Positions 25,395-28,155 of a stretch of 64,000 nt of DNA are shown here, one piece after another; the first letter of the stretch is position 1, and each line of letters begins with the position of its first letter. A program made the translations under genes and the position numbers. The notes under the pieces were generated by a model. That model searched no databases. It had not been told where the DNA came from and saw only the letters and a program-made list of their open reading frames with translations. Source of the DNA: Proteiniphilum saccharofermentans (GTDB lineage: Bacteria; Bacteroidota; Bacteroidia; Bacteroidales; Dysgonomonadaceae); assembly GCF_900095135.1 (NCBI RefSeq), contig NZ_LT605205.1, positions 434,001 through 498,000 on the forward strand, in the 5' to 3' direction.

Positions 25395-26705
25395 CATTAG
25401 TGGGCACTTAAATAAAAAAATAGTTCTTTGAAATCTTTTGTAGATCGCAGTTTTGAGAAATTTTAGTTGTGTGACGATTTGAAATGCGATGATTATATTT
25501 TACTTTGCCCAAAAGTAAAAATCATGAATCAAGGCAAATATATTTTCGCACAGCTTACAGAATTTCTACCACGTAGGGTGTTTGACCATATCGTATCCAG
25601 GCACGATGGAAACAAGAAAGTCCGAAGTTTCACCTGCTGGAACCAGATGCTATGCATGATCTTTGGACAATTGACAGCCCGTGACAGTATGCGGGACTTG
25701 ATGTTGAGCTTGGAAGCCCATCAATCCAAATATTACCATTTGGGACTGGGGGCAAGCGTAACCCGGACAAATCTGGGCAAAGCCAATCGTAACCGTAGCT
25801 ATAAAATCTTTGAGGATTTTGCCTATGTGATGATGGACAAGGCCCGTCAAAGTCATTACAGGGAGGACTTTGAAGTCAAGGTGGACGGGAACGTCTATGC
25901 CTTTGACTCCTCCACCATCGACCTGTGCCTGAGTGTCTTCTGGTGGGCGGAGTTCCGCAAGCACAAGGGAGGCATCAAGTTGCATACATTGTATGACCTG
26001 AAGACTTCCATTCCGACTTTCGTGTTGATCACCAGCGCAAAGGTCAATGATATGAACGCGATGGATTATCTTCATTATGAATCCGGGAGCTTTTATATCT
26101 TCGACCGCGGATACGTGGACTTTGACAGGTTGTACCGGGTGAATGAATCCGAAGCCTGGTTTGTCACGCGGGCCAAGAAGAACTTCAAGTTCCGCAGGAT
26201 GTATTCCCGGGAAGTTGACAAGTCGACGGGCGTGCAATGCGACCAGATCGGGAAACTGGAGGGATTCTACCAGCAAAAGGACTATCCCGGCAAACTGCGC
26301 AGAATCAAGTATCACGACGTGGAACTGGGCAGGACTTCGTTTTTATAACCAATAACATGGACTTGACGGCCGTCGAGATAGCGCTACTGTATAAAAAACG
26401 CTGGATGGTTGAGTTGTTCTTCAAATGGATAAAACAACACCTGAAAGTAAAAAGCTTCTGGGGAACGACCATCAACGCCGTTAAAATCCAATTATATTGT
26501 GCTATCATCGCTTACTGTCTGGTAGCCTCGATTGGTTACGAATTGAAAGTTGAGCGTCCAATCTACGAAATTCTGCAAATACTCAGCATCTCCCTACTGG
26601 ACAAAACTCCTATAAGAGAGATACTTACGAATTGCGATTACAAAAATGTCAAAGAGCTCGATTATAAACAATTAAAAATCAACTGGATCTAAGTGTCCAG
26701 TAGTG
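25395..26705 (+). mobile_element. IS4-family-type insertion sequence (1311 bp)
   Basis: Imperfect terminal inverted repeats match at 13 of 16 positions: CATTAGTGGGCACTTA at the left end and TAAGTGTCCAGTAGTG at the right end. They enclose a single transposase gene, and a perfect 9-bp direct repeat flanks the element. The right terminal repeat overlaps the transposase stop codon. The element lies between the ECF sigma and FecR genes in the opposite orientation. Removing it would leave a sigma-fecR spacer of about 94 nt. A preserved target duplication suggests a fairly recent insertion. Confidence 0.85.
25524..26692 (+). pseudogene. IS4-type transposase, split by one frameshift
   Basis: The N-terminal part (MNQGKYIFAQLTEFLPRR through the DDE aspartates in YAFDSSTIDL and YIFDRGYVD) runs to a stop at 26346. 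The C-terminal part with the YREK signature (LYKKRWMVELFFKWIKQH) continues in the -1 frame to 26692. The break is at a run of five T (26340-26344); six T would give one continuous protein of about 390 residues reading RTSFFITNN. A one-base deletion is simplest. Ribosomal slippage at TTTTTA is a less likely alternative. Without the shift the catalytic Asp and Glu residues are on separate polypeptides, so the enzyme is probably inactive. Confidence 0.85.
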
Positions 26706-26728: not shown

Positions 26729-27328
26729 TTAAAATCCTTTGAATAACAATATGATAAATATGATTGAAGGTAAAGTGGCATTTTCTTTTCTGATTTTATT
26801 GATTGCCTGGGATACGAGTTTCCGGATCGAAGTCTCATTCCTCCCCATCATTTCGGAGATTTGGGCATATTCCAGTTCCTGAATATATCGTAAGTACACA
26901 GCTTCTTTCTGCAGAGGAGAGAGGCTGTTCAATAATTTCTCTATTTTCTGTTGTATCACCACCCGGTCTTCATCCTCAATAATTTCATCAAGAATAGTAG
27001 TCTTGATGGAAAAATTAAAAGCATCATGCTGAATATCCGTTGTATTGGAGAAAGGTTTGTATCTGAAAAAATCATATAACTTATTTTTCAGGGATTTCAG
27101 AAGAAAAAACTTAAAATGCGCTACAGAGTTAAATCGTGGTTTGTTAAAAAAAATTTTCAGAAATACATCCTGTATGGCGTCCATTACATAATCGTCTTCT
27201 ACACCCAGACTCTTGCCATAGGCATACATGTCGTTGATAAAGAATTTGTAAAAGAAAGAAAATGCTTCTTCATCTCCCTTTTGTAGTTTTACGAAAATAT
27301 TTGATACTTCTTCGGATGCCACATTCAT
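26729..27328 (-). CDS. ECF-family RNA polymerase sigma factor
   Basis: The 199-residue protein has sigma region 2 (residues about 25-90; DYVMDAIQDVFLKIF) and region 4 with its helix-turn-helix (about 135-185; LSPLQKEAVYLRYIQELEYAQISEMM). Bacteroidota ECF factors of this type are paired with a FecR protein and a SusC-type receptor, all of which follow on the same strand. The C-terminus has a short hydrophobic tail (IIFIILLFKGF), which may place it near the membrane partner. An insertion sequence now separates it from fecR. Confidence 0.92.
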   Translation of the reverse strand: MNVASEEVSNIFVKLQKGDEEAFSFFYKFFINDMYAYGKSLGVEDDYVMDAIQDVFLKIFFNKPRFNSVAHFKFFLLKSLKNKLYDFFRYKPFSNTTDIQHDAFNFSIKTTILDEIIEDEDRVVIQQKIEKLLNSLSPLQKEAVYLRYIQELEYAQISEMMGRNETSIRKLVSQAINKIRKENATLPSIIFIILLFKGF

Positions 27329-27523
27329 AAATAGTATATCCTCTATAGAAATTGATAAAAACGATACAAGAGCAGGGTTATATCCAAATTACAGAAATAT
27401 AGGGAAGTAATCTGTTCATTTCATTAAATCAGAGTGCCTTATAGTTATCTGTGGCTCTCCGGTTTGAACCGTCGACCCTCAATCTGTGCCCCAAATATAG
27501 ATAATTTTTTATATAACCAAAAA

Positions 27524-27618
27524 TTTTAAAAAAAGAGGCCCCCTCGATCGAGAAGGCCTCTTTTGTATCGGTTAACGTGATATCAGCATTAAGGTAAAAA
27601 AGATTGTTTTAGGTTATC
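27524..27618 (-). ncRNA. Candidate small RNA (about 95 nt)
   Basis: A textbook Bacteroidota promoter on the minus strand (27653-27623) is followed by about 95 nt without a reading frame. It ends in a strong terminator whose stem AAAAGAGGCC/GGCCTCTTTT runs into seven T. Near both ends GTATCG (27565-27570) can pair with CGATAC (27618-27623), though part of the second arm may lie upstream of the start. There is no gene whose 3' end this terminator would serve. The exact ends are estimates, and I cannot assign it to a known RNA family. Confidence 0.55.
27531..27564 (-). terminator. Rho-independent terminator of candidate small RNA
   Basis: Perfect 10-bp stem AAAAGAGGCC (27531-27540) with GGCCTCTTTT (27555-27564) and a 14-nt loop. 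It is followed by a T-run on the minus strand. Confidence 0.75.
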
Positions 27619-27622
27619 GATA

Positions 27623-27653
27623 CAAAGATAGAGCGCTATTTTGAATCTGCAAA
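27623..27653 (-). promoter_or_regulatory. Bacteroidota-type promoter for candidate small RNA
   Basis: On the minus strand TTTG (27653-27650), a 19-nt spacer and TATCTTTG (27630-27623) match the -33 TTTG and -7 TAnnTTTG consensus exactly. Confidence 0.65.
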
Positions 27654-27657
27654 ATAA

Positions 27658-27696
27658 AAAAATATGTTATAAGACATATTTCTGTAACATATTTTT
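27658..27696 (-). terminator. AT-rich hairpin upstream of candidate small RNA
   Basis: AAAAATATGTTA (27658-27669) and TAACATATTTTT (27685-27696) pair perfectly around 15 nt. On the minus strand the stem runs into TTTTTTTATTTT. It could be a second terminator that separates rpsO-side transcription from the small RNA promoter. Confidence 0.4.
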
Positions 27697-27885: not shown

Positions 27886-28155
27886 TTATTTTCTGATCCC
27901 CAGTTCCTTGATAATGGAACGATATCTTTCGATATCTGTGTCGATCAGATAATCGAGTAAACGACGACGTTTACCGACTAAAATTTTCAATGCTCTTTCT
28001 GTGCTATAATCTTTTTTGTTTGACTTGAGATGCTCAGTCAAATGCGAAATACGGTAGGAAAACAATGCTATCTGCGCTTCTGATGAGCCAGTATCAGTGT
28101 TGGACTTCCCGTATTTGGCGAAGATTTCCTTCTTTTTAGCAGAATCTAAATACAT
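27886..28155 (-). CDS. rpsO: 30S ribosomal protein S15
   Basis: The 89-residue product shows the full S15 pattern: TDTGSSEAQIALFSYRI, LTEHLKSNKKDYS and GKRRRLLDYL. Length and ends match the family exactly. S15 binds the central domain of 16S rRNA early in 30S assembly. The gene stands alone with its own promoter (28198-28228) and terminator. Confidence 0.98.
   Translation of the reverse strand: MYLDSAKKKEIFAKYGKSNTDTGSSEAQIALFSYRISHLTEHLKSNKKDYSTERALKILVGKRRRLLDYLIDTDIERYRSIIKELGIRK

Follow-up and report, generated by a model that had tools for sequence, protein, structure and literature searches.

A conserved small RNA of Bacteroidales predicted to act as a Cur-activated sponge of the FopS small RNAs

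Introduction

Sponge RNAs, which carry the complement of another sRNA's seed, are known from Enterobacteriaceae, where examples are the ChiX decoy in the chb mRNA and RbsZ, which is directed against RybB, and E. coli also has CyaR and Spot 42 as CRP-controlled sRNAs. In Bacteroides thetaiotaomicron, the FopS sRNAs, whose seed is GTGTTTTTCATAGTATTAGATTTAAGGTTAACAAA, act with the protein RbpB to repress susC mRNAs (PMC11697453), and repression of mRNAs has been reported for both FopS and GibS (RF04319/RF04182; PMC11697453, PMC7366714). Cur (BT4338), the carbon-limitation regulator, has the consensus site wwwTATGTTnTAnAACATAwww (PMC3878776, PMC6989115), and the sRNA MasB (BTnc201) of the same species is activated by Cur under carbon starvation (PMC10994844). 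In the published papers searched, we found no account of how the repression of several SusC-type transporters by FopS is lifted and no sponge RNA for the phylum.

Here we analysed a window of 64,000 nucleotides (positions 434001-498000 of a single-contig genome of 4.41 Mb), which contains a noncoding RNA of ~91 nt that, judged from its sequence, is moderately likely to be a Cur-activated sponge (anti-sRNA) of FopS. Among named bacteria, Proteiniphilum and further Dysgonomonadaceae are nearest to this genome. FopS and GibS are its predicted partner and not its paralogues, as the RNA complements their seed. It resembles MasB in that control by Cur is predicted for it, whereas MasB is described as narrowly conserved and as having an mRNA target, BT_1675 (PMC10994844). 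Like the enterobacterial sponges it complements the seed of a second sRNA, but it belongs to another phylum and comes from a dedicated gene that has a regulated promoter to itself, no role of Hfq is assumed, and it is predicted to block a multicopy sRNA family. With CyaR and Spot 42 it would share the role of sRNA arm of a carbon-limitation regulator, although its sequence is unrelated to theirs and its predicted target is another sRNA.

The sRNA gene and its conservation

The gap between the ECF sigma gene and rpsO holds, in minus-strand order, a palindrome, TTTG, 19 nt, TATCTTTG, an AU-rich core of 54 nt and a terminator with a U-run (Table 1). The first-pass annotation had proposed an orphan small RNA here, with a consensus promoter, no reading frame and a strong terminator, and all of this was confirmed. 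The promoter is of the canonical sigma-ABfr type (TTTG/TAnnTTTG, 19 nt between the boxes) and was missed by a sigma-70 scan because that scan uses another consensus. FopS genes start 5 nt past their own -7 box, and application of this rule places the predicted start at G27618 and gives the length of ~91 nt. The terminator reads AAAAGAGGCCTTCTC-GATC-GAGGGGGCCTCTTTT followed by the U-run (27564-27528), and the stretch folds much more stably than shuffled sequences do (z = -5.0). Among 42 homologues, 13 of the 15 terminator pairs show two-sided changes and 95% of the cells are paired, which none of 500 shuffles equalled. No conserved open reading frame exists among the homologues; the core has a single ATG, followed by a frame of 5 codons in all, and indels of 1-5 nt separate the homologues. 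Exact copies in this genome are limited to the gene itself.

Table 1 Features of the sRNA locus (positions in the window)
Feature	Sequence or type	Position	Strand	Basis or remark
ECF sigma gene		26729-27328	-	
Small RNA	~91 nt	27528-27618	-	start 27618 predicted from -7 box and FopS analogy
Rho-independent terminator	15-bp stem + U-run	27528-27564	-	covariation in homologues
Pairing block 4	CTGATAT (CTAATAC in many homologues)	27580-27586	-	complements GUAUUAG, FopS R1 seed
Pairing block 3	ACCTTAA	27589-27595	-	complements UUAAGGU of FopS R1 seed
Pairing block 2	CAATCTT	27600-27606	-	complements AAGAUUG of FopS
Pairing block 1	GATAACC	27612-27618	-	complements GGUUGUC of FopS
-7 element	TATCTTTG (TAnnTTTG)	27623-27630	-	sequence; conserved
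-33 element	TTTG	27650-27653	-	sequence; conserved
CRP/Cur-type palindrome	ATATGTCTTATAACATAT	27662-27679	-	centre ~-52 from predicted start; predicted activator site
rpsO		27886-28155	-	

By DNA search, the element is present in 35 of 38 sampled genomes of the same genus and in all 22 other sampled genomes of the family, with weaker matches in further families. Homologues of promoter, core and terminator together are near-universal in genus and family, and the proposal of an sRNA gene, which had been made to depend on conservation of promoter and terminator in relatives, withstood this comparison. Of 392 genomes of the order, 66, from 16 families, were matched in the covariance search in related genomes that had been suggested as a check, and the matches span the entire model from the palindrome through the terminator; a phylum-wide draw of genomes gave no matches outside the same order. 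We are therefore nearly certain that the gene is real. Pairing between the 5' and 3' regions, which had also been noted, did not hold up: the greater part of the pairing of TATCG with CGATA falls before the predicted start (27618), and it is kept in only 61% of cells. As elements of RNA structure, the closing 5'/3' helix and an inner hairpin were both discarded, being poorly kept in the homologues. The sponge-like RNA is present twice in some genomes (G340, G437, G392 and those with the loci L058, G053:C84, and L059, G052:C14), and the terminators of the copies differ.

The downstream ECF-sigma operon

The same annotation considered that the RNA could act on the ECF-sigma/FecR/SusC operon, and one may also read it as a leader or attenuator of this downstream operon. 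The RNA indeed shares the strand of the ECF sigma gene and precedes it by ~200 nt, yet the genes downstream of its homologues differ among genomes in identity and strand, while on the upstream side rpsO is retained in most genomes of the family; the leader/attenuator reading is rejected because of this variability. The terminator is strong and conserved. Predicted pairing with the ecf, fecR, susC and susD starts (-12.6, -15.5, -10.5 and -16.5 kcal/mol, respectively, versus -30.8 kcal/mol with FopS) is weak and no better than background, which is also the outcome of the suggested target prediction against the susC and susD leaders. An orphan sRNA gene is what stands of the earlier interpretation, and we consider a role as leader of, or effector on, the ECF-sigma operon very improbable. 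The link of the RNA to SusC-type genes is probably indirect, by way of FopS, the predicted partner.

Two other features were observed nearby. An IS4-family transposase in two overlapping frames (25467-26692 of the window) splits the ECF sigma gene from its FecR gene, and at 27440-27475 on the minus strand GGGTCGACGGTTCAAACCGGAGAGCCACA resembles a tRNA gene of which the 3' half is there and the 5' half is absent. ARAGORN reports no tRNA in this latter stretch and the genome has no second copy of it; it is possibly an old attachment-site scar.

Relation to the Rfam family BTnc060

A search of Rfam at the curated cut-offs gave no match for the sRNA. When the search was relaxed, RF04184 (BTnc060) was matched at 48.5 bits (E = 7.6e-7), far below its gathering cut-off of 228.9, so that by Rfam score the sRNA does not belong to this family. 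The alignment nonetheless runs from end to end (model positions 1-213): the palindrome region is aligned, and the core blocks, CCUGAAAACAAUCUUUUUACCUUAA...CUAAUACC, and the terminator are common to both. Loci of other families, with scores of 46-111 bits, bridge the gap to BTnc060. We conclude from the sequence comparison that the sRNA is a distant homologue of BTnc060, a Bacteroides sRNA, and not a member by the rule of Rfam. One difference is that the BTnc060 model begins ~100 nt before the promoter box and start used here, and for this reason the transcript may be longer in Bacteroides. The name BTnc060 is not mentioned in the literature texts searched, and an identification of BTnc060 with BatR was dropped, BatR having been published as BTnc167. 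The weaker relaxed matches to BTnc231, Phe_leader and STnc40 rest on terminator-like hairpins.

Complementarity to FopS

This genome has two FopS genes according to RF04319, at 77.6 and 79.4 bits (loci L166 and L167; cut-off 56), and a third, GibS-like gene (L168) just under the cut-off at 50.2 bits. The conserved blocks of the sRNA (GATAACC, CAATCTT, ACCTTAA and CT(A/G)ATAY) are the reverse complement of FopS in the same order, and in distant families CCTATTGAAAAC additionally stands opposite GUUUUUCAUGG. The match was noticed post hoc, once the FopS seed was known from the published work (PMC11697453). The duplex of the sRNA with FopS of its own genome is predicted at -34.0 kcal/mol, and 0-2 of 1000 shuffles were as good; for the GibS-like gene of this genome the duplex was not significant against shuffles. 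Own-genome duplexes in the 32 genomes tested lay between -26 and -40 kcal/mol, a value equalled by 0-7 of 150 shuffles. At the 28 paired columns 96% of the cells pair, and across the homologues the blocks are kept while the linkers between them vary in length. A search for 29-mer antisense matches in the genome returned the sRNA gene itself only; pairing is therefore in blocks and not by perfect antisense. As a sponge does, the RNA complements, over an extended stretch, the seed of a different sRNA in the same cell.

Duplex energy alone would not single out FopS, as an energy of this size is reached by 7 of 12,764 overlapping 60-nt segments of the region. Kept substitutions at the paired columns are slightly above chance (11 of 31 types, where 8 are expected), a signal that stays so small because FopS hardly varies. 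An alternative is an ordinary trans-acting sRNA, with repression of mRNAs through its conserved 5' seed and a complementarity to FopS that is secondary. Such a function would suit the single-stranded 5' half, which is conserved beyond the needs of pairing (the segment TAAAAC is conserved yet unpaired with FopS), and similar duplex energies are computed for several of the GC-richer mRNA stretches in the window. Against it, four blocks match one partner in order in many families, the RNA is never found without a FopS partner, and the best of 50 gene starts in the window reaches only -25.9 kcal/mol, so that none pairs as well as FopS. On balance we find the ordinary-sRNA explanation unlikely and consider it rather likely that the RNA is a sponge of FopS.

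Co-occurrence with FopS and a compensatory change

In the 392 genomes, the RNA occurs together with the exact R1 seed in 62, without it in 4, and the R1 seed occurs without the RNA in 13, the remaining 313 having neither; these are raw genome counts that ignore phylogeny. The four exceptions carry the R1 seed with 1-2 mismatches, and since they do, the RNA is not found without a FopS-type seed, its predicted target being present in 66 of 66 genomes with the RNA (4 with seed variants). No convincing sRNA was found in the 13 genomes with R1 only.

One of these variants offers a compensatory change, the one clear case, in a single genome (G299). Its FopS seed UAUUAGAUUUUAGG (UUAGGU) has 2 mismatches, and block 3 of its sRNA reads ACCTAA instead of ACCTTAA; the cognate pair is predicted at -31.6 kcal/mol, and the crossed pairs at -22.8 and -27.3 kcal/mol. 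A separate FopS-like RNA (L266, G265:C41) has the changed seed TATTAGATTGTAAAG and a weak match to the sponge model, and may be a diverged FopS.

Pairing is symmetric, and FopS is multicopy while the sRNA is usually single-copy, which would also suit the reverse direction, in which FopS controls the sRNA or both decay together and the sRNA has its function elsewhere. We judge this improbable: the carriers of the sRNA are strictly a subset of the carriers of FopS, and pairing uses all conserved blocks but one short stretch, which leaves little sequence for another function.

The Cur-type palindrome and its regulator

The palindrome ATATGTCTTATAACATAT has one mismatch to the Cur/BT4338 consensus. 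In 81 of 82 homologous sRNA loci the best site has its first base at an offset of 49-50 nt ahead of the -7 box, and 77 of the 82 homologues have 0-3 mismatches to the consensus, where the null is ~5-6. In this genome there are 15 sites with at most one mismatch, and 7 of them, that of the sRNA included, have a TAnnTTTG box at the offset of 49-50 (P ~5e-11). Neighbours of the other sites include EF-G2 (by NCBIfam) and, by eye, sugar-type regulators, an isomerase and an epimerase. EF-G2 is the best-known target of Cur; the EF-G2 site is without a strict -7 box at this offset. This site (L091, G000:C1:1220428) is a perfect Cur-type palindrome between the gene for EF-G2 and a divergently oriented one for a P-type ATPase-like protein, and a similar arrangement exists upstream of fusA2 in Bacteroides.

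From the site and its geometry, activation of the sRNA by a Cur-type protein seems quite probable. Since the genome has five CRP-family genes and similar palindromes are bound by relatives, the palindrome might instead serve another CRP/FNR-family regulator, and the inducing signal would then not be carbon limitation; we hold this to be fairly unlikely, as the site fits the Cur consensus, the spacing is equal at sites adjoining sugar-type genes, and a perfect site lies beside EF-G2. A candidate for the Cur orthologue itself among the five CRP-family genes is C1:1721462-1722163; a site with 2 mismatches immediately precedes its start, and 2gau is a close relative of solved structure.

Proposed mechanism and the palindrome in FopS promoters

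We propose that, under carbon limitation, a Cur-type CRP-family protein would bind the palindrome at ~-52 and activate the sRNA, as site and geometry suggest. The exposed 5' half of the RNA would then pair through the four blocks with FopS and cover the R1 seed, a step for which the complementarity was computed. FopS would thereby be sequestered and its targets, mainly the mRNAs of SusC-type transporters if FopS functions as in B. thetaiotaomicron, would be released. If true, the sRNA would be an off-switch of FopS and a missing link in the food-source switching of Bacteroidales, tied to Cur, which controls gut colonisation and carbohydrate use, and BTnc060, an Rfam entry without a function, would gain one. 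The pairing prediction is precise to the base.

A second branch may act on FopS synthesis. A Cur-type palindrome stands 24-28 nt before the -7 box in 30 of 106 FopS-type promoters (shuffle null 0.03), including those of L166 of this genome and of L138, L148, L149, L150, L165, L173 and L246, and it covers the -33 region; no GibS-type copy has the palindrome across this region. The position of the site suggests that a protein bound there would block these promoters, activation being the alternative. If it does block them, one regulator would lower FopS synthesis and make the sponge: the FopS genes that carry the palindrome across -33 would be turned off by the protein under the condition that induces the sponge. 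The two branches would then add up to a coherent switch for the release of polysaccharide-utilisation genes. We put forward this full two-branch switch, with an order-wide Bacteroidales sponge activated by Cur and with Cur also repressing FopS, as a tentative possibility. Two FopS copies were also seen head to head at a contig end in one genome (L209, G049:C26:1-300).
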